Source: Candidatus Saccharimonadota bacterium
GTDB taxonomy: Bacteria; Patescibacteriota; Saccharimonadia; Saccharimonadales; JACOTW01
NCBI GenBank assembly: GCA_016178135.1
Contig: JACOTW010000001.1
Span: 64,228-96,528, forward strand
DNA length: 32,301 nucleotides
Direction: 5' to 3'
Shown here: in pieces, positions 1-32,232 of the stretch
Layout of the letters: each line of letters starts with the position of its first letter
Position numbering within the stretch: position 1 is the stretch's first letter
Program-made: the position numbers and the translations under genes
Notes under the pieces: generated by a model
The model's database searches: none
What the model was told of the DNA's origin: nothing
Seen by the model: only the letters and a program-made list of their open reading frames with translations

Positions 1-124
1 CCTCAGAGTCGAAGACAAACGGTTTTTCTTCTCTCAATGTAGCTACTGCTACCTCTCCTTCAGCCAAACCACTCCCAACTCGAGCTGATTTAGCCTGGGA
101 ACGGGCGATTTTGCGTAAGTCCAG
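1..124. repeat. Family-1 palindromic element (copy 1), truncated by window edge; right TIR ...GGGCGATTTTGCGTAAGTCCAG
   Basis: Shares ctcgagctgattt/cgccctgggaacgggcgattttgcgtaagtccag with the copies at 10402, 22803 and 29428; flanked by TAAA. Confidence 0.85.
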
Positions 125-758
125 TAAATTTTCGTGTTTCGTGAGGAAGTTGGCCACTGAATACGTATTCGGTTAGAATGGCAGTGGTTTCTTTTATGAG
201 ATTTGGCAGTTGTTTTTGTTCCTCATCGTTAAAGTTTGCCAGTACAAAATCGGCACCATCAATCTGCGGAGGTTTTTTGGGGCCTATACCTATACGTACT
301 CGCCCAAAATCTTCTCCGAAGTGCTGAATGATCGATTTAATGCCATTATTACCGGCATCCGTGCCCCCTACGCGAGTTCTGATTTGGCCAAATGGTATGT
401 CTAGCTCGTCATGAATAATGACGGTTGAAGCGTTGGTAATTTTGTAAAAACTAGCCACCGCCTGAACTGCTTCGCCACTAAGATTCATAAAGGTTGTGGG
501 TTTTATAGCAATGACACGAGTGTTTCCTAAGGTGCCACTCGCAAATAGACATTTGAGATCTTTTTTTTCAATCCATTCTGTTAAGTCCGTTATTTTGGCG
601 AATGAATCAATACAGGCGAAGCCAATGTTATGACGCGTATCTTCGTATTGCTTGCCCCTATTGCCTAACCCAACAATCATTACGGTGTTTTGCAGGCCTA
701 GTGTATAAAGTGGTTGTTTTTCTGTGCTGTCGTAAGGGTTTTTTTGAAATAATGCCAT
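90..758 (-). CDS. pth: Peptidyl-tRNA hydrolase; C-terminal residues TGLTQNRPFPG encoded by the family-1 element
   Basis: VGLGNRGKQYEDTRHNIGF, KPTTFMNLSGEAV and HDELDIPFGQIR motifs. Confidence 0.95.
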   Translation of the reverse strand: MALFQKNPYDSTEKQPLYTLGLQNTVMIVGLGNRGKQYEDTRHNIGFACIDSFAKITDLTEWIEKKDLKCLFASGTLGNTRVIAIKPTTFMNLSGEAVQAVASFYKITNASTVIIHDELDIPFGQIRTRVGGTDAGNNGIKSIIQHFGEDFGRVRIGIGPKKPPQIDGADFVLANFNDEEQKQLPNLIKETTAILTEYVFSGQLPHETRKFTGLTQNRPFPG

Positions 759-2198: not shown

Positions 2199-3020
2199 TT
2201 AATTGGCGGCTTGATAGTTACCACTTGATAAAAGTCCAAGTTTATAAGGGCCAAAATGGGTGCGGTGGAGCTTGATTACCCTATAGCCTAAGTGTTCGAA
2301 AGTACGTCGGATTTGGCGGTTTCTGCCCTCTTGCATGATGACTTTCCATTCTTTGCGTTGATTATTGATTAAGTCCAGCGCCAGTGTACTTAGCCCATCT
2401 TCTAGCAATACTCCCTGCTGGGTTATTTTTTGAAAATCGGCTTGACCTAGGTCTTTATTAAGGGCTATCTTGTACTTTTTGATTTTTTCAAACTTGGGAT
2501 GCGTAAGCTCATAAGCAAGTTGTCCATCATTTGTAAGTAGCAATAGGCCGGATGAATTTTTATCAAGTCGTCCTACGGGCTTGAGATGATGAAGATTTGC
2601 TGGCAATAAGTTATAAATGGTCTGATTTCCTTGGCTGTTCCGAGAACAAACGTAGCCAACCGGTTTATTTAGCAGGATGGTTTGATATTTGACATTAGGT
2701 GTACTGGACTTATGTAAAACTCCCCCATTCCCAGATCGAATTCTATCGACTGTAAACGGTTTTTCGTCTCTTGATGTAGCTAAGGCTATCCGTCCTTCAG
2801 GTAAAACTGTTTTCGCTGGATATAATTCACTCTGGGAACCGACGATTATGCGTAAGTCGATTATATCCCGATTGTCAAGTGTTACGGTGTCGTCCAAATT
2901 AATTTCTTGTCCTAGGTGCGCGACGCTATTATTGACACTTACTCGGCCTTGACGAATAGCCTCATCAGCCACACGCCTACCCATACCCGTAGTTTGTGCC
3001 AAAAATTTATTTATTCGCAT
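2199..3020 (-). CDS. RsuA/RluB-family 23S/16S rRNA pseudouridine synthase with a ~54-codon in-frame palindromic insert
   Basis: N-terminal S4 domain (RINKFLAQTTGMGRRVADEAIRQGRV); catalytic LKPVGRLDKNSSGLLLLTNDG; KPVGYVCSR. Confidence 0.93.
   Translation of the reverse strand: MRINKFLAQTTGMGRRVADEAIRQGRVSVNNSVAHLGQEINLDDTVTLDNRDIIDLRIIVGSQSELYPAKTVLPEGRIALATSRDEKPFTVDRIRSGNGGVLHKSSTPNVKYQTILLNKPVGYVCSRNSQGNQTIYNLLPANLHHLKPVGRLDKNSSGLLLLTNDGQLAYELTHPKFEKIKKYKIALNKDLGQADFQKITQQGVLLEDGLSTLALDLINNQRKEWKVIMQEGRNRQIRRTFEHLGYRVIKLHRTHFGPYKLGLLSSGNYQAAN
2704..2861. repeat. Family-1 palindromic element (copy 3), in-frame within the pseudouridine synthase gene
   Basis: ctggacttatgtaaaactcccccattcccag ... 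ctgggaaccgacgattatgcgtaagtcgat; flanks TGTA/TATA; 158+4 = 162 bp. Confidence 0.9.
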
Positions 3021-10401: not shown

Positions 10402-10579
10402 CTGAATTTGTCGCAAAGCTCCCCCATCCCCAGACCAACTAACCTCGGCTGGTAGCGGTCCGCCTTCTTTCGATGTAGCCTTAGAGTTAATTAGCTCTAA
10501 GGCTACATCTCCTTCAGTCAAACCACTCTCAACTCGAGCTGATTCGCCCTGGGAACGGGCGATTTTGCGACAGGTCCAG
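10402..10579. repeat. Family-1 palindromic element (copy 5) with extended central stem, intergenic
   Basis: ctgaatttgtcgcaaagctcccccatccccag ... ctgggaacgggcgattttgcgacaggtccag; flanks TATA/TATG; center tagccttagagttaattagctctaaggcta. Confidence 0.9.
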
Positions 10580-13453: not shown

Positions 13454-13577
13454 CTGTAGCAAAACTCCCCATCCCCAGACCGAATAATCTACTGGACCTG
13501 TCGCAAAATCCCTCGTTCCCAGGACGAATCAGCTCGAGCTGAAGCAACCAAGGTATCAGCAAAGCGCCAAACTCGTG
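13454..13577. repeat. Chimera of two family-1 arm fragments and a family-3 right arm
   Basis: 13454-13490 ctgtagcaaaactccccatccccagaccgaataatct; 13492-13543 ctggacctgtcgcaaaatccctcgttcccagg...; 13545-13577 caaccaaggtatcagcaaagcgccaaactcgtg matches the right arm at 19211-19246. Confidence 0.8.
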
Positions 13578-13583
13578 TATAAT
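13578..13583 (+). promoter_or_regulatory. Candidate -10 box (TATAAT, extended TG) abutting the family-3 end
   Basis: ctcgtgTATAATtttattacaATG; 9 nt before the ATG at 13593. Confidence 0.5.
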
Positions 13584-13592
13584 TTTATTACA

Positions 13593-16154
13593 ATGATCTT
13601 CAAAAACAGGCAACTTTCCGATTTAGAGCCAGAGGGTACCGTTCTTCTGCTTCAGGTTCCACGTACTAATGAAAAAAAAGAGTTAGCTGCCGAGCAAATG
13701 TTTGCTTCCTTGCACGGCCTTCTATTATCTGCCGAAAAAACCCGTATTCATGCTGCTAAGCGCGAGCACTTAAGCTTTGAAATTGCCGTACAACAAAAAC
13801 GTATTGGTTTTTACGTCTGGGTGCCAAACTATCTTAAGAATTTTGTAGAGGAACAAATCTATGCTCAATACCCGACAGTTAATATCTCCGAGGTGCCCGA
13901 CTATACCCTAGTCGAAGACGCTCCGGCTTCAACTCAATTATCTGCCGAACTGCAATTTACTGCCAACGAGGCTTTACCAATCAAAACATTTCCAAGTTTT
14001 GAGGTTGATCCCTTGGCGGCCATAACTGCTGCCTTAGCCCAATTTGAAGATAATGAAGAAGCTTGGCTACAATTAGTTATTCGACCGGCTTCGCATAATT
14101 GGTACAAGAAAAGCGAGCAGTACGCTGCTGGTATTCGCGGTAGCCGGACAAGTTCGGGGGGCTTATTGGGTGCGTTATGGTCTCCGCCCGAAGCTAAGAC
14201 CGAAACCCCGAAACTTGCTGAATATCAAACCGCTAGAGCAGGCGCGGCGGAAGAAAAAAGCCACAAACTAGCCTATGAAGTAGCCTTGAGGATCGTATAT
14301 CGCGGCAATACTTCACCTACCCAGGCACGGATGCGCATCCAGGCCATAACAGCTAGCTTTAAACAGTTCAATACAACCTATTTGAATGGTTTTATTGGCA
14401 AAGTTCTAGGCGAAGACGATCGGTTTATCGATCTATATCGTGCGCGACGGATTGCTGGGCGTGGTTTTGTTTGTAATATAGAAGAGGTTGCCAGCCTTTA
14501 TCACTTGCCACACACTAATGTGGAAACTCCTAATATTCTCTGGGCTAATTCTAAGACGGCTGAACCGCCAGCTAATCTACCGCTTGTTACGGAGCAAACA
14601 ACTAATACAATCAGTCCGATTGCCGTTACTAACTTTCGCGGACACAATACCATGTTTGGCATGCCTAGGGATGATCGCGGGCGGCACCTTTATATCATAG
14701 GACAAACGGGTACTGGTAAATCCGGTTTGCTTGAACTTTTGACCATATCTGATCTCTACAGCCCTTATGGTTTTGCGGTTATAGATCCCCACGGTGACTA
14801 TGCCTTGAATGTACTGCGTCGAGTTCCAGCCGAAAGAATGGGTGATGTTATTTATTTCAATCCGGCTGATACTGATTTTCCGATTGCCTTCAACCCTATG
14901 GAGGTTTATGATAAAAAACTAAAATCTCATACCGCGACAGAGTTAATCGGTGTCCTAAAACGTATGTTTGAGTCTTGGGGTCCACGTCTGGAATATATTC
15001 TACGTTACAGTCTGCTCGCCCTGTTGGACTACCCTAACGCGACAATGCTCGACATTACTCGAATTTTGACCGACAAAAAGTTCCGAATGGAAGTACTGGA
15101 GTACATTGATGATCCGGTTGTGCGAAACTTCTGGCTTGTTGAATTTGCCAGCTGGAATGATAAATTTGCCACTGAAGCTGTTGCACCAGTATTGAACAAG
15201 GTCGGAGCCTTTACTGCCAATCCAACGGTCCGTAATATAATTGGCCAGCCCAAAAGTAGTTTCAATATTCGTCAAATTATGGATGAGCGCAAGATATTGA
15301 TTGTTAATTTGTCTCGAGGCTTAATTGGCGAGGACAATGCCGCTTTGCTTGGTGCCCTGTTGGTTACCAAAATCCAGATGGGTGCTATGAGTCGGGCAGA
15401 CATTCCGCCAGAAGAACGGACACCTTTTTATTTGTATGTTGATGAATTCCAGAATTTTGCCACCGATTCATTTGCCACTATTTTGTCCGAAGCTCGCAAA
15501 TATGCCTTGAATCTGACCGTGGCCAACCAATATATTGCCCAGATGAGTCAAGAAGTTAAAGACGCTGTTTTTGGAAATGTTGGTTCGGTCGTAACTTTCC
15601 GAACAAGTGCCGATGATGCCCGAACCATGCTGAAGTATTTTGAGCCCAAATTCGAAGAACACGATCTCGTTCATATGCATAATCGTCATTTTATTGTCAG
15701 TATGACTATTGCCGGTGAAAAAGTGCAGGCTTTTTCGGCCACAACCCTTAATTTGCCTGAACGAACTAGTGATTACAGTGCCGAAATTATAGCTAATAGT
15801 CGCGAGCTCTATTCCATGCAACGCGACCACATAGAAACGTTTATGCGCAATCGTTATATTACGCAAGCAGATCAACCAAAACAACAAACCCCAGCAAAAC
15901 AACCAGACCACAAGCCGGAACCTTCAAGAGTATCCGCCAGCCCGAGCAAGAAAGCTGCTGAAGATATTCTGAAGCTTACTGGAGCCACACCATATCCTTC
16001 CCATGAAGCGGTGGTAAACTCCACAGAACAACCGAAGCGTAAACGTACTAGATCGCGTCGCAAGAACAAACCAGTGGATACCGCCGAACGAGCTGTTATA
16101 CCTAACAATAATCGGCAACCTAGCGATGACGGGACAATTATTCATCTGCGTTAG
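13593..16154 (+). CDS. VirB4/TraG-like type IV secretion/coupling ATPase (helicase HerA-like)
   Basis: LYIIGQTGTGKSGLLELL Walker A; FAVIDPHGDYA; FYLYVDEFQNFATDSFATILSEARKYALNLTVANQY. The GTG start in the ORF track (13575) would overlap the candidate -10, so ATG 13593 is preferred. Confidence 0.88.
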   Translation: MIFKNRQLSDLEPEGTVLLLQVPRTNEKKELAAEQMFASLHGLLLSAEKTRIHAAKREHLSFEIAVQQKRIGFYVWVPNYLKNFVEEQIYAQYPTVNISEVPDYTLVEDAPASTQLSAELQFTANEALPIKTFPSFEVDPLAAITAALAQFEDNEEAWLQLVIRPASHNWYKKSEQYAAGIRGSRTSSGGLLGALWSPPEAKTETPKLAEYQTARAGAAEEKSHKLAYEVALRIVYRGNTSPTQARMRIQAITASFKQFNTTYLNGFIGKVLGEDDRFIDLYRARRIAGRGFVCNIEEVASLYHLPHTNVETPNILWANSKTAEPPANLPLVTEQTTNTISPIAVTNFRGHNTMFGMPRDDRGRHLYIIGQTGTGKSGLLELLTISDLYSPYGFAVIDPHGDYALNVLRRVPAERMGDVIYFNPADTDFPIAFNPMEVYDKKLKSHTATELIGVLKRMFESWGPRLEYILRYSLLALLDYPNATMLDITRILTDKKFRMEVLEYIDDPVVRNFWLVEFASWNDKFATEAVAPVLNKVGAFTANPTVRNIIGQPKSSFNIRQIMDERKILIVNLSRGLIGEDNAALLGALLVTKIQMGAMSRADIPPEERTPFYLYVDEFQNFATDSFATILSEARKYALNLTVANQYIAQMSQEVKDAVFGNVGSVVTFRTSADDARTMLKYFEPKFEEHDLVHMHNRHFIVSMTIAGEKVQAFSATTLNLPERTSDYSAEIIANSRELYSMQRDHIETFMRNRYITQADQPKQQTPAKQPDHKPEPSRVSASPSKKAAEDILKLTGATPYPSHEAVVNSTEQPKRKRTRSRRKNKPVDTAERAVIPNNNRQPSDDGTIIHLR

Positions 16155-17608: not shown

Positions 17609-17643
17609 TGATTATATTATGCCACAGATGTTCTGGACCTGTA

Positions 17644-17794
17644 CTAGACCTGTCGCAAAATCGTCTGTTCCCAGAGTAAATTATCTCCAGCAAAAACTGT
17701 TCTATTCGAAGTAGAGGTACATTGACAGAAGAAAAACTGTCTGTAGCCGATAGAATTAGATCTGGGGATGTAGGAGTTTTTGGGTAAGTTTTAG
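17644..17794. repeat. Family-1 palindromic element (copy 7, divergent), intergenic
   Basis: ctagacctgtcgcaaaatcgtctgttcccag ... gatctggggatgtaggagtttttgggtaagttttag; flanks TGTA/TATA. Confidence 0.85.
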
Positions 17795-17816: not shown

Positions 17817-19097
17817 CTACATACTTGATACTAGGCGGCGCAGTTGATCGCTACTTAGTTTGGAGTTACCCTCAATTTGGTACTTGATACCAGCATTGAC
17901 CCAAACGGCGTTAGCATTATCATAAATATAAATTGTCCTACCTCGCTCTTGTAGAGTCATAGGTTGTTTTCCGCCGTCAACTAGACTACCTAGTAATGTT
18001 TCACTATTCCAGGTGGATGATTGCTGGATAATTTTGAAATTACGATCATCGCTACTAGATTTAAAATTTATAGTAATTTGACCAGATTTGTATTCAATTG
18101 GTCCGTACAGAGCGAATCCTGATGGCTGGTAATCAGGTAGGCTGCCGTGTACCCCGGAGCGCGTAGTGGCTATTCGCATGGCTATATTTGGCACATTTTG
18201 ATAAGCAATAAAACCAGTTAATAATAAAATGGCCATCGAGACGGCACTGATATTTATAGTACGTGGACTGACATGTAACTTGCGGGCGACGCGGTGATGC
18301 AGTTTGGTGTGTCTTTTAATTTTGGGCTGTTCATGGCTTGAGGTATTAGCTAGTGCGTTGGTTAGTGGATAATTTTTTGCTGGTACGGCTATTACGTTAG
18401 CGTGGTGCGGTAGGTTTATCGGGGTGGTCGGCACTTTTGTCGGTACTGGTTGAACTGGTAGTGTAGTAATTTTTGGGCTAGTAAATCCGCTACCAAATTT
18501 ACTGATCAAACGACTTTTTTTGATATGATCGGCACGTAAAATACGACCTTGGCTGACTGGCTGACTGGATTGTCGTGGACTCCTTTGTTCGCCAGCTGAA
18601 CTGGACTTACGCAAAATCCCTTGTTCCCGAGACGAATTAGCTCGAGCGAAAACAGTTTTATCTGGAGGAGAGATACCTGAAAGTACATCGAGAGAGGAAA
18701 AACCGTTTGTAGCCGAGGTTATTCGGTTTGGTGATGATGGAACTTTACGCGAAGCCTCAACCGGATTAATTACTTGATGATCTTGAATATGGTTTGAACC
18801 TGGTATTTTGTTGACGGGCTTATTAACGGCACTACGCATTAGTGTTTTTGATCGTTCGGTCCTGTTTATTATTTTTTGGCTAGCAGAATTCATGTGATCA
18901 GGTAACTTTTTAATAGCGGAAGACATTGTATCTGGTCGTCTGATAAAACCGTCAAGTACTGTACCGGCCTTTGCTGTAGGTGTTGGTGATTTTGAGATAG
19001 TAGCATCGACCAGCTTACCGCTTGTTATATCGTAACGCTTTCCGTTAAATTCGATTGTGTTTTGACGATTAGTCACTTTTTGGCTTACCCTCAACAT
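17817..19097 (-). CDS. Hypothetical single-TM protein, DUF4367-like extracytoplasmic domain, with in-frame family-1 insert
   Basis: TM NISAVSMAILLLTGFIAYQ; domain SGFALYGPIEYKSGQITINFKS...; insert RKVPSSPNRITSATNGFSSLDVLSGISPPDKTVFARANSSREQGILRKSS. Confidence 0.75.
   Translation of the reverse strand: MLRVSQKVTNRQNTIEFNGKRYDITSGKLVDATISKSPTPTAKAGTVLDGFIRRPDTMSSAIKKLPDHMNSASQKIINRTERSKTLMRSAVNKPVNKIPGSNHIQDHQVINPVEASRKVPSSPNRITSATNGFSSLDVLSGISPPDKTVFARANSSREQGILRKSSSAGEQRSPRQSSQPVSQGRILRADHIKKSRLISKFGSGFTSPKITTLPVQPVPTKVPTTPINLPHHANVIAVPAKNYPLTNALANTSSHEQPKIKRHTKLHHRVARKLHVSPRTINISAVSMAILLLTGFIAYQNVPNIAMRIATTRSGVHGSLPDYQPSGFALYGPIEYKSGQITINFKSSSDDRNFKIIQQSSTWNSETLLGSLVDGGKQPMTLQERGRTIYIYDNANAVWVNAGIKYQIEGNSKLSSDQLRRLVSSM
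18601..18757. repeat. Family-1 palindromic element (copy 8), in-frame inside the 17817-19097 CDS; right end degenerate
   Basis: ctggacttacgcaaaatcccttgttcccgagacgaattagctcgagcgaaaacagtttta...ggtttggtgatgatggaactttacgc. Confidence 0.88.
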
Positions 19098-22402: not shown

Positions 22403-23353
22403 TCAGTCGAGTAGAGACGTTGTTAGTGCTTCAAACGCTTTGCTCGGGTTCTGTATTAACCACACAGAGGCGTGGGTGGCGGTTTTGACTTGCCAAACTG
22501 GCAAATCTGTTTCCAGCTTTGTGGTACTGACCTGCCCGCCTACCGCCACAAGAATATTGTTCAAATGTTTTACTACGATACTTACGGGATAATTTTTGGT
22601 CACCTGGTGCAAGGTGTCTACTAGTTTTAGCAAATCCATGCCAAAAGTAACCGGTGTCGGTAGATCAAGACCGGAGACTATCTTTTGGAGTTGAGCCATA
22701 GACACCACGAATGTTGTGTTTGGACGTTCGAAAGCAGACTTAGGGGTATTTAAGAAATAATCAGCAGCATCTTTTGCAATAACTACTGGACCTGTGAATT
22801 TACTGGACTTACCCAAAGCTCCCCCATCCCCAGACCAACTAATCTCAAGCGGTAGCGGTCTGCCTTCTTTCGATGTAGCTAAGGCTACCTCTCCTTCAGT
22901 CAAACCACTATCTGCTCGAGCTGATTTGCCCTGGGAGCGGGCGATTTTGCGTAAGTCCAGTTTACTCATGAATTTTTCTAATAATATGGCTGTTTCACTG
23001 TTGCGTCCAAAATCGCCAACTAGCAATACGCTATCTGCCCAAGCAGATTGCTCAATAAAATCAGCCAAAGCTTGCCGGCTAAAACTGCCGGATGGTGTGC
23101 TGGGAGCGTAATCAACGGTCTCCAGGATATTACCAGCTATCTTCTTGACAGCATCTGGTAATAGCACTCTTGTCAAGCCCACGCCGGCCCTATTGGCTTC
23201 TATATAGGCTTCAGCTGGCGCGGCAAACCCATGCAAGTTGCCACCTATTATTAGTAGCTTGCCAGCATGTTTTTTGTGTTCCGGCCTACTCCATTGTAAA
23301 TCTGGAAAAAGTGGAGCGTCCATGGTTTGTTTATGCCAATATGTAAGATCCAT
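22403..23353 (-). CDS. ADP-dependent NAD(P)HX dehydratase-like (YjeF C-terminal/carbohydrate kinase) with ~54-codon in-frame family-1 insert
   Basis: HKKHAGKLLIIGGNLHGFAAPAEAYIEANRAGVGLTRVLLP; ADSVLLVGDFGRN; insert DLRKIARSQGKSARADSGLTEGEVALATSKEGRPLPLEISWSGDGGALGKSS. Confidence 0.82.
   Translation of the reverse strand: MDLTYWHKQTMDAPLFPDLQWSRPEHKKHAGKLLIIGGNLHGFAAPAEAYIEANRAGVGLTRVLLPDAVKKIAGNILETVDYAPSTPSGSFSRQALADFIEQSAWADSVLLVGDFGRNSETAILLEKFMSKLDLRKIARSQGKSARADSGLTEGEVALATSKEGRPLPLEISWSGDGGALGKSSKFTGPVVIAKDAADYFLNTPKSAFERPNTTFVVSMAQLQKIVSGLDLPTPVTFGMDLLKLVDTLHQVTKNYPVSIVVKHLNNILVAVGGQVSTTKLETDLPVWQVKTATHASVWLIQNPSKAFEALTTSLLD
22803..22960. repeat. Family-1 palindromic element (copy 9), in-frame, with perfect TTTA duplication
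   Basis: TTTA|ctggacttacccaaagctcccccatccccag...ctgggagcgggcgattttgcgtaagtccag|TTTA; 158+4 = 162 bp = 54 codons. Confidence 0.95.
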
Positions 23354-24057: not shown

Positions 24058-24217
24058 CTGGACCTGTCGCGAAATCCCTCGTTCCCAGGGCGAATCAGCT
24101 CGAGCGAAAACAGTTTTGTCTGAAGGAGAGGTACCAGGGAGGTACATCGAGAGAGGAAAAACTGTTTGTAGCCGAGGTTAGTCGGTCTGGGGATGAGGGA
24201 TTTCGTGACAGGTCCAG
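24058..24217. repeat. Family-1 palindromic element (copy 10), full length, perfect TATA duplication
   Basis: TATA|ctggacctgtcgcgaaatccctcgttcccag...ctggggatgagggatttcgtgacaggtccag|TATA; arms fold into a ~75-bp imperfect hairpin. Confidence 0.96.
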
Positions 24218-26618: not shown

Positions 26619-26874
26619 CACGAGTTTCGGACTTATAGCCCCCGCAAAACAAATTCCCGACTTTTCGAATCACCCTCTTTGGCCCAAAACCGCCTTTCCT
26701 CGTTCAACGTATCTAAGGATATGTCTCTCTCGGAAAAGTCAGTTTTTGACTCAAAGATCATTGCTTCATAAACCCACGAATTTGTTTTGCGGGGACTATA
26801 GCCGGACAGAAAAACTGTTTGCAGTCCCGCATATGCGGGATGAACGGGGGCGATGGAAAAGTCCGAAACTCGTG
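26619..26874. repeat. Family-3 palindrome interrupted by a family-2 element; perfect 5-bp TSD (AATGG)
   Basis: CACGAGTTTCGGACT ... AAGTCCGAAACTCGTG; AATGG at 26614-26618 and 26875-26879. Confidence 0.9.
26638..26796. repeat. Family-2 palindromic element, nested in family 3; TATA duplication
   Basis: TATA|GCCCCCGCAAAACAAATTC ... GAATTTGTTTTGCGGGGAC|TATA, 159 bp. Confidence 0.92.
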
Positions 26875-29172: not shown

Positions 29173-29250
29173 TTGAACTGATTAATGAACTGCTGCCCGA
29201 CTTCCGCCCGGACAACTATCAACAATGCGATACTCAATAGAAGTAGTATA

Positions 29251-29385
29251 GTCCCCGCAAAACAAATTCGTGGGTTTTTGAAGCAATGATCTTTGAGCCA
29301 AAAACTGACTTTTCCGAGAGAGACATATCCTTAGATACGTTGAACGAGGAAAGGCGGTTTTGGGCCAAAGAGGGTGATTCGAAAA
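29251..29385. repeat. Family-2 element, right end replaced; inverted relative to the copy at 26638
   Basis: TATA|gtccccgcaaaacaaattcgtgggtttttgaagcaatgatctttgag...gagggtgattcgaaaa is nearly the reverse complement of 26638-26796. Confidence 0.9.
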
Positions 29386-29427
29386 CTACTCTTCGAGTCT
29401 GAGCCTGAGGGCTCACCTCAGAGTCGA

Positions 29428-29531
29428 AGACAAACGGTTTTTCCTCTCTCGATGTACCCCCGGGCTTCAGACAAAACTGTTTTCGCTCGAGCTGATTCGC
29501 CCTGGGAACGAGGGATTTTGCGTAAGTCCAG
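29428..29531. repeat. Family-1 half element (copy 11) fused to family 2 through a shared palindromic joint
   Basis: gaagacaaacggtttttcctctctcgatgta...ctcgagctgattcgccctgggaacgagggattttgcgtaagtccag|TATA. Confidence 0.88.
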
Positions 29532-29578
29532 TATAGTTTATGATTTTAATATGCCGGTCAAACCATCGCATGATCTTA

Positions 29579-32086
29579 TTAGTATACTGGACCTCTACGA
29601 ACGTGCTTGGCATAAACTCTTGTAAGCCATTTATGTAATTCACTGACGGCTAGTATGGCCGATATCATAGTGCCCGAGCTTAATAATATTGTGGACACGG
29701 GTACCGTTTGAATATCAAATACTGTGCCAAGCGGTCCAAACATAACGAGCATTTGTAGCCCAAACGCTAGGGCAAAACCAGCCAGTAATCCATGATTCGC
29801 TTTTCTGATTTTACTGAATGAGGATTTGTACTCGCTTCTAGCGTTGAAGGCGTTCATCCATTGAGCCGCGATTAGAGTCATGAACCCGACAGTTTGAATG
29901 TAGGTGGTATTATGCCCTTGTCGTTTTAGCACAAACACGACTAGCAGGGTAATGGTGGCCATGGCCAGTCCGATAGCTACCATTCTACTAAGTAAGATTT
30001 TGTTCAGCAGAGGATCTTGTGGCCGCCTTGGCGGGCGTCTCATATACCCGTCCTCTTCAGGTTCTAGACCAAGCGGTATAACCAGTGCAGTATCAGTAAC
30101 AAGGTTGATCCATAGTATTTGAATCGCCGTGACTGGTAGCGGTAATCCGAATAATAACGCGCCAATCATAGTTAAAACTTCACCGAGTGTGGTAGATAGT
30201 ATATAAAAAAGCATTCGCCGAATGTTGTCAAATATTTTGCGCCCTTCGGCGATAGCTTTGATGATGGTTGCGAAATTGTCGTTGAGTAATACTATGCCAC
30301 CAGCGTCTTTAGCTATGTCGCTTCCGGAACCCATAGCAATACCGACATGAGCATTGGCAAGCGCGGGAACGTCATTTACGCCATCGCCTGTCATTGCTGT
30401 AATCTCGGTTTGTTTCAGGGCTTTTAATATTCTGAATTTATCTTCAGGTAATATTCGAGCGAAAACTGTTTTATTACGTATTGTTGTGGCCAGTGCGGAT
30501 GTTTCTTTGGGCAAGTCTACACCTTGTATGACTTGGGCGGGATGATTCGCCAATCCAATCTGTTTACCTATATTGTAAGCGGTCTCATAATGATCGCCCG
30601 TTATGAGTCGGACGCTAATACCGGCCTGGCGTGCGGCACGTATAGCTCGTGCCGCTTCAGGACGTAGTTCATCGGCAAAAGCCACATACCCAGCAAAATC
30701 TATACCGTGATTTTTTATAGTACTTAAATCTTTTGGAGCTGTACCGGAAATCTTATATTTTCCGAAGGCAATTACTCTGTACCCTTTTGATGTAAGTTCG
30801 TGCATAACAGATTCGGCAATATGATACTGTTCTTTTGAAACGCTAGACTTGGCTAGTATATGTTCAGGAGAGCCTTTTATGTAAATAATTCCATCTTTGT
30901 GTATAAACGCTCCACTCATTCTAAGTGCTAGATCAAAAGGATATAGCTTATCTATCTTAGCGTGTCCACTCGCACTATCTTTAATGGCTTGGTCAAGCGG
31001 ATCAGTTGGTGTGGTCGCTAGGTCTATTGTGCGTTCGGCAACCCTCATTACATCGCCCGTATTTGGCGACCAACTGTCTATAATGGATAAATGATTTTTA
31101 GTAAGAGTGCCGGTTTTGTCTGTCGCAATTGTTGTTACTAGCCCAATGTCCTCAATGGCTTTGAATGATCTGACTAATGCTTTTTGTTTTGCCATCCGTT
31201 TCATACCCAAAACGATAATAATTGTCAGGGCAACCGGTAATTCTTCGGGTATGGCAGAAACGGTAAAGGCGAGCACGAAACGTAGTGATTCCCCTGCCGA
31301 AATTCCTCTTGCCAACGACATAATAAATACGATAACCGCTAATGTGCCAACGACCTTAATAAGTAATGTTATAAGTTGATCGATCTTAGACTGAACGGAG
31401 CTTTTGGAATGATCATCAGATGTCAGATTGGCAATTTTACCAAACTCTGTTCGACTACCCGTGTCTACGACCAGCGCTTTGGCAGATCCCGCTATTACAT
31501 ATGTACCTTGAAACACCATATTCTCTTGCTCATATATCGGTTTTGATGATTCAAGCGTCGAAGCGTACTTATGAACTGGCACCGACTCACCGGTAAGTGA
31601 CGATTCATTAACTTGTAAATTGTCTGTGTGAATAATTCGTGCGTCAGCAGGTATTCTATCGCCTTCGCTTAATATAATAATATCCCCAGGAACAAGATTG
31701 ATAGACGAAACAGACTGCTCTTCACGGTCTCTTATTACAATAGCCCGCTGGATGCTGTGCTTCTTTAAGCTTCTTAAGACTCGAGTGGTAGCGTACTGCT
31801 GTGAATAATAAATACAGGCGTTGATTAGGATAATGATGCCGATAATTATCGCGTCAAGAAACTCGTGGCCGATAAGGCTAATAATCGCGGCAACGGCAAG
31901 GACGCCAGCGAACACGTTTCTGAACGGCTCTACAAGTATTCGCCAAAACGGCTCTGTTTTGATGGCAAGCTGATTAGTGCCGTACTTGTTTAGGCGGTTA
32001 GATGCTTCCTGACTAGAGATCCCCCTATCTGAAGTTTCGAGTATTTCATATAATTGTTCAGTATTCTGTTTGTACCAAGTCATACG
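29579..32086 (-). CDS. P-type cation-transporting ATPase (Ca2+ / SERCA-PMR1-like); likely start ATG at 32086
   Basis: DKTGTLTKNHL; TGDGVNDVPALANAHVGIAMG; SLTGESVPV. The ORF-track extension to 32194 runs into the family-1 element. Confidence 0.93.
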   Translation of the reverse strand, partial: RMTWYKQNTEQLYEILETSDRGISSQEASNRLNKYGTNQLAIKTEPFWRILVEPFRNVFAGVLAVAAIISLIGHEFLDAIIIGIIILINACIYYSQQYATTRVLRSLKKHSIQRAIVIRDREEQSVSSINLVPGDIIILSEGDRIPADARIIHTDNLQVNESSLTGESVPVHKYASTLESSKPIYEQENMVFQGTYVIAGSAKALVVDTGSRTEFGKIANLTSDDHSKSSVQSKIDQLITLLIKVVGTLAVIVFIMSLARGISAGESLRFVLAFTVSAIPEELPVALTIIIVLGMKRMAKQKALVRSFKAIEDIGLVTTIATDKTGTLTKNHLSIIDSWSPNTGDVMRVAERTIDLATTPTDPLDQAIKDSASGHAKIDKLYPFDLALRMSGAFIHKDGIIYIKGSPEHILAKSSVSKEQYHIAESVMHELTSKGYRVIAFGKYKISGTAPKDLSTIKNHGIDFAGYVAFADELRPEAARAIRAARQAGISVRLITGDHYETAYNIGKQIGLANHPAQVIQGVDLPKETSALATTIRNKTVFARILPEDKFRILKALKQTEITAMTGDGVNDVPALANAHVGIAMGSGSDIAKDAGGIVLLNDNFATIIKAIAEGRKIFDNIRRMLFYILSTTLGEVLTMIGALLFGLPLPVTAIQILWINLVTDTALVIPLGLEPEEDGYMRRPPRRPQDPLLNKILLSRMVAIGLAMATITLLVVFVLKRQGHNTTYIQTVGFMTLIAAQWMNAFNARSEYKSSFSKIRKANHGLLAGFALAFGLQMLVMFGPLGTVFDIQTVPVSTILLSSGTMISAILAVSELHKWLTRVYAKHVRRGPVY
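29582..29595. repeat. Solo family-1 end (AGTATACTGGACCT) forming the ATPase C-terminus (GPVY*)
   Basis: agtatactggacct is identical to the junction at 24053-24064. Confidence 0.5.
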
Positions 32087-32099
32087 CTTAATTAGTATA

Positions 32100-32190
32100 C
32101 TGGACTTACGCAAAATCGCCCGTTCCCAGGCTAAATCAGCTCGAGTTGAGAGTGGTTTGACTGAAGGAGAGGTAGCCTTAGAGCTAATTA
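32100..32190. repeat. Family-1 element (copy 12), truncated at its center, just upstream of the ATPase start
   Basis: TATA|ctggacttacgcaaaatcgcccgttcccaggctaaatcagctcgagttgagagtggtttgactgaaggagaggtagccttagagctaatta. Confidence 0.9.
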
Positions 32191-32232
32191 ACATCTATCC
32201 GTTGATAGCGAATCTTTAGCAGCTGTCATGAT

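Follow-up and report, generated by a model that had tools for sequence, protein, structure and literature searches.

How can a palindromic element lie within a protein-coding gene and leave both DNA strands open to translation? The question is raised by one locus of the window, the 32,301-nucleotide stretch of Candidatus Saccharimonadota DNA analysed here, at which the minus-strand frame of a host protein runs through an inserted element (copy 9). The first-pass annotation had described the plus strand as open through the same element, and both frames are indeed found, the minus-strand host ORF at 22403-23353 and the plus-strand ORF at 22794-23111.

A palindromic insert in an NnrD-like gene

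The insertion site comprises the following features:

22403..23353, minus strand, host gene of copy 9, NnrD-like (NAD(P)H-hydrate dehydratase / carbohydrate-kinase fold), 316 aa, with a 54-residue insert from ~residue 132
22794..23111, plus strand, open reading frame through copy 9
22799..22802, TTTA target-site duplication to the left of copy 9
22803..22960, family-1 palindromic element copy 9, 158 bp, termini CTGGACTTACCC / GCGTAAGTCCAG
22961..22964, TTTA target-site duplication to the right of copy 9

Nothing points to gene status for the plus-strand ORF. The host product has no Pfam family below E 0.001 and resembles the NnrD part of PDB 2ax3 (N-terminal half, E 4.6e-5). Protein searches with it find matches in 56 of 61 genomes (the window's own genome, G000, and 55 relatives of the order), and these matches end near residue 131 and resume near residue 184. 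Exactly 54 residues are absent at one place (between ...ILLEKF.. and KYTG...) from the aligned NnrD orthologues (n=29), which identifies copy 9 as an insertion into an ancestral gene and not as a variable domain.

Further copies of the same family (family 1) are present in the window:

9..125, partial copy at the 3' end of pth (90-758, minus strand)
2704..2861, 158-bp copy within an S4/pseudouridine synthase gene (2199-3020, minus strand), in frame, phase 0
10402..10579, longer copy of 178 bp, intergenic
13490..13545, one-arm partial copy upstream of ORF 13575-16154
17642..17789, decayed copy between a gltX-like ORF and ORF 17817-19097
18600..18754, copy 8, decayed, opposite arm order, in frame within ORF 17817-19097 (minus strand)
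24058..24217, 160-bp copy with a TATA duplication at the 3' end of an xth-like gene, between two different genes
29424..29533, partial copy, intergenic
32098..32181, partial copy at the 5' end of a P-type ATPase ORF (29579-32194, minus strand)

The opposite arm order and in-frame reading that had been ascribed to copy 8 are borne out, and the short tails reported for pth and xth, in which other frames stop quickly, agree with the sequence. The net insert of the 160-bp copy at 24058-24217 would shift a reading frame.

Anatomy of family 1 and its fit to host genes

The survey of family 1 covered 570 kb, read in stretches, of a Saccharimonadales genome of 800 kb (96.7% complete, in 14 contigs). 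These stretches hold 89 distinct two-ended copies (the initial tally of 90 had counted one twice) and ~98 partial or divergent relatives. The two-ended copies terminate in CTGGACTTACGC and its reverse complement, and 54 of them have identical 4-bp flanks, every one TNNA; random re-pairing of the flanks gives a mean of 11 and a maximum of 22 such copies in 2000 trials. The length is 158 bp in 54/90, while the rest are mostly 157, 159 or 160 bp long. The elements are short and have no transposase coding capacity, their only ORF being the read-through frame, and they combine the terminal inverted repeats with a fixed 4-bp target-site duplication. Structurally, family 1 corresponds to a MITE (miniature inverted-repeat transposable element) that targets the 4-bp sequence TNNA. 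Compound copies of ~330 bp with matching outer duplications also occur (L038:8544-8874, L049:6880-7209) and look like an element within an element.

The label "palindrome" used in the first-pass annotation is correct as far as the inverted arms go, but the symmetry is imperfect: the consensus shares just 57% identity with its reverse complement, so that a stop-free frame on one strand is not in itself a guarantee of one on the other.

According to a simple codon-usage score, 19 family-1 copies are placed inside genes, 25 at gene ends and 44 in intergenic DNA. All 19 in-gene copies are 158 bp long, compared with 19/44 intergenic ones (P = 9e-6), and 18/19 are read in phase 0, statistics that are partly circular since an open frame was required for the internal class. 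A re-check that admitted any copy with coding sequence on both flanks and on the same strand, whatever its frame, added only three more, one of which is the copy at 24058-24217. On this basis, 158-bp phase-0 copies account for 18 of at most 22 coding-flanked insertions, against an expectation of ~19% (P about 3e-10). The orientations are split 9 versus 10, as predicted by the earlier proposal that insertion can be tolerated either way round, and the untranslated strand is also open in phase 0 in 18/19 internal copies. This pattern of length, phase and orientation is not due to chance, and gene-breaking copies of family 1 are nearly absent. The same proposal had taken one open frame per strand as sufficient for tolerance. 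The frame is open, but tolerance also requires a net insert divisible by three; in genes this insert is 162 bp, or 54 codons (the 158-bp element plus the 4-bp duplication).

The hosts are conserved protein genes, within which the palindrome lies in frame as Rickettsia palindromic elements (RPEs) do in theirs. A Pfam match above the family cut-off was obtained for 15/18 host genes: UvrD, UvrD-nuclease, Mur ligase, DHFR, RsmA/KsgA, TruB, FtsJ/TlyA, NUDIX, two pseudouridine synthases (one named RluB), ROK, FemAB, glycosyltransferase, LPG synthase and peptidase M1. The catalytic domain match is split in two by the insert in DHFR, RsmA and TruB (TruB_N). One glycosyltransferase gene (L039:3366-4814) carries two independent in-frame family-1 inserts.

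A second palindromic family of the same genome (TIR TATAGCCCCCGCAAAACAAATTC) has none of its 40 copies inside genes in the 570-kb sample. Its copies, ~40 in 570 kb and two of them in the window (26662-26800 and 29247-29385), are 97-100% identical. Many are one-ended, being devoid of one outer 23-bp terminal module, with nearly constant breakpoints before TTTTCGAATC and after GCTTCAAAAAC.

Mechanism, selection and competing explanations

Taken as a whole, these data are best explained, with high probability, by a non-autonomous, MITE-like element that enters proteins as a frame-safe filler. Family 1 recognises TNNA targets and duplicates 4 bp, and the 158-bp element thereby yields the net 162 bp (54 codons). 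Its arms are roughly complementary, which leaves one phase (NNA, then CTG GAC TTA ... AAG TCC AGT) free of stops on both strands; insertion in either orientation is therefore tolerated in a gene, as long as the codon phase of the target is suitable. A gene would be truncated or frameshifted by an insertion in another phase or by one of the 157-, 159- and 160-bp forms, and the sample shows no clear case of either inside a gene. The in-frame state of the 54-residue polar insert is observed directly, and its persistence in housekeeping genes suggests that the host protein is translated with it and retains its activity. The inserted peptide itself would act as filler. The dual-strand design has probably been retained through the repeated passage of source copies through genes in both directions, a step that we hold with moderate confidence.

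The enzyme that mobilises family 1 may be lost or may act from elsewhere. Profile searches of the genome gave no match to DDE_Tnp_1 (PF01609) or DDE_Tnp_1_4 (PF13701; IS1380-type), rve (PF00665) matches are confined to short degraded ORFs, and the two Y1_Tnp (PF01797) genes have no adjacent family-1 element; no mobilising transposase was found among these four families. A 1.8-kb stretch in L031, bounded by one long TIR pair with a matching duplication, was considered as an autonomous transposon and rejected, as it encloses a D-Ala-D-Ala ligase-like (Ddl-like) gene and not a transposase. Viral contigs scanned for the TIR contained 12 single matches, none of which formed a two-ended element. The two Y1 genes, whose matches exceed the cut-off, would fit a REP-like element moved by a Y1 (HUH) transposase. 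This origin is very unlikely given the TNNA 4-bp duplications, and in the loci that were read neither gene has a copy of the element close by. HUH transposition is not known to make 4-bp duplications.

Stop counts make the openness of the element explicit. Phase-0 stops per 158-bp copy amount to 0.05 (plus) and 0.11 (minus) in genes and to 0.21 on each strand in intergenic DNA, whereas dinucleotide shuffles contain 2.2-2.5 per copy and strand and the other phases of real copies 1.7-4.2. The equality of intergenic copies and shuffled controls that would have spoken against the first-pass proposal is thus not seen (0.21 versus about 2.4 per strand). Selection on the open frame is seen in one respect only. 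Private mutations, defined as changes absent from the five nearest copies, are neutral in intergenic DNA (silent:replacement 50:104 observed, 47:102 expected), where 13 copies are open on both strands against 13.0 expected under neutrality; intergenic openness is therefore inherited. Within genes the ratio is likewise neutral (32:78 observed, 33:73 expected), with no amino-acid constraint on the inserted peptide detectable from it, and 17 copies are open against 14.3 expected, a mild excess that reflects stop avoidance only. Apart from this avoidance, there is no sign of selection on frame or peptide after insertion.

These ratios bear on the idea that the insert is an exapted peptide selected for a function such as binding, regulation or stabilisation. 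The recurrence of a similar peptide in many unrelated host proteins would suit it, yet the in-gene ratio matches the neutral expectation and the peptides of both strands are used equally, which makes exaptation highly improbable. Even less credible is that the element never reaches the protein, being removed from the mRNA like an intron or bypassed by the ribosome. Copy 9 is predicted to form a strong hairpin (about -63 kcal/mol), and bypassed palindromes are mentioned for yeast mitochondria (PMC6649704). Length and stops would not matter to an element that is removed; in-gene inserts, by contrast, are always open and a multiple of three, and the 157-, 159- and 160-bp copies that are common outside genes are absent inside them.

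The more serious competitor is that composition and palindrome symmetry have left both strands open by accident, the in-gene copies being survivors of random insertion without selection ever having acted on the element, and we place its probability a little below even. Under a pair-preserving null, the G000 consensus has a 2.8% chance of being stop-free in phase 0 on both strands and a 5.3% chance of being so in any shared phase, and the dual-strand openness of one family alone is only mildly surprising. The neutrality of intergenic private mutations also agrees with an accident, as do several related elements of the order that are not open on both strands (L090, L092, L053, L133 and L130), some with stops in every phase (L090, L053 and L130) and some open on one strand only. 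Against it stand the consensus self-complementarity of just 57% and the relatives of family 1 in other genomes. A second Saccharimonadales family (G020) has a single 158-bp relative, 72-78% identical, that is open on both strands. The genome G451, from another Patescibacteria family that lies outside the order as far as its kinship is given, contains a separate family of 161 bp (net 165 bp) with 64% identity to family 1. Despite this 3-bp change in length, phase 0 is again stop-free on both strands in 6/6 of the 161-bp copies, the sampled ones being intergenic; the null for the consensus is 0.6%, or about 8-11% if it had merely drifted from an open common ancestor. Selection on source copies for dual-strand openness is accordingly plausible, not proven, and the case for it rests on few families.

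Some of these relatives are of interest in their own right. A pilin-like protein of G020 (L052:841-1668) starts with the 54-residue peptide of the element, in frame and directly before the GFTIVEM prepilin motif. The search of a third lineage (G065) gave a single copy of a family-1 relative, and a GAPDH of that genome (L127:428-1630) has a C-terminal extension of ~60 residues derived from such a relative in the same reading phase. The G451 element at L139:1501-1661, which has a TAAA duplication, shares the terminus CTGGACTTACGCAAAAT with family 1, an identity which suggests that the element has spread horizontally or that the termini have long been conserved.

A broader proposal can be made only tentatively, and we stop short of favouring it: that a superfamily of Patescibacteria palindromes has been shaped by source-copy selection to be protein-compatible on both strands, with a net length divisible by three. 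Ultra-small genomes, dense in genes, would offer such elements coding DNA to colonise in either direction, and in-frame inserts would have been seeded independently in the housekeeping proteins of several lineages.

Relation to known elements and significance

The closest counterparts of family 1 are the RPEs, reportedly the subject of work by Ogata et al. in 2000 and 2002. Family 1 works like them, though it belongs to another phylum and has a defined duplication. RPEs are palindromes of ~100-150 bp that lie in frame in conserved Rickettsia genes and have counterparts in Wolbachia (PMC10969869, PMC3767692), and, like family 1, they occur in many copies, some in frame within unrelated conserved protein genes without loss of frame and others intergenic (PMC10969869, PMC2229807, PMC3767692). 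Family 1 is set apart from them by description. It resides in an unrelated phylum (Patescibacteria, Saccharimonadales) and has a different TIR (CTGGACTTACGC) and a clear 4-bp TNNA duplication, where a review enters "?" for RPEs (PMC2229807). Its use of both orientations in a single shared phase has been put into numbers, and it follows a rule of 162 bp net.

MITEs with open frames (ERIC/RU, YPAL/RU-2 and the 107-bp Correia element of Neisseria) are also short and non-autonomous with TIRs and target duplication, and some have open frames fused to genes (PMC2229807, PMC2759123). However, these are mainly intergenic with occasional fusions (PMC2229807, PMC2759123), whereas about one-fifth of the two-ended family-1 copies lie in genes, in housekeeping domains. 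The coding inverted repeats of nematomorph mitochondria likewise lie within protein genes that stay functional (PMC6649704). By contrast with family 1, which is imperfect, dispersed, mobile, target-duplicating and decaying, those repeats are perfect and actively maintained (PMC6649704). No report of such elements in Saccharibacteria or Patescibacteria was found in the literature searched, which excluded most subscription journals and with them the original RPE papers, and priority is not certain.

In-frame palindromic insertion in proteins has so far been treated as a peculiarity of Rickettsiales, and family 1 provides a case in another phylum. Given its sharp footprint and the values obtained for phase, length and orientation, the survival of selfish DNA inside proteins becomes directly testable. 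For annotation, it is a warning that dozens of Saccharibacteria proteins contain transposon-derived segments. The family-1 inserts are also natural experiments in which ~54 residues have been added to essential enzymes.
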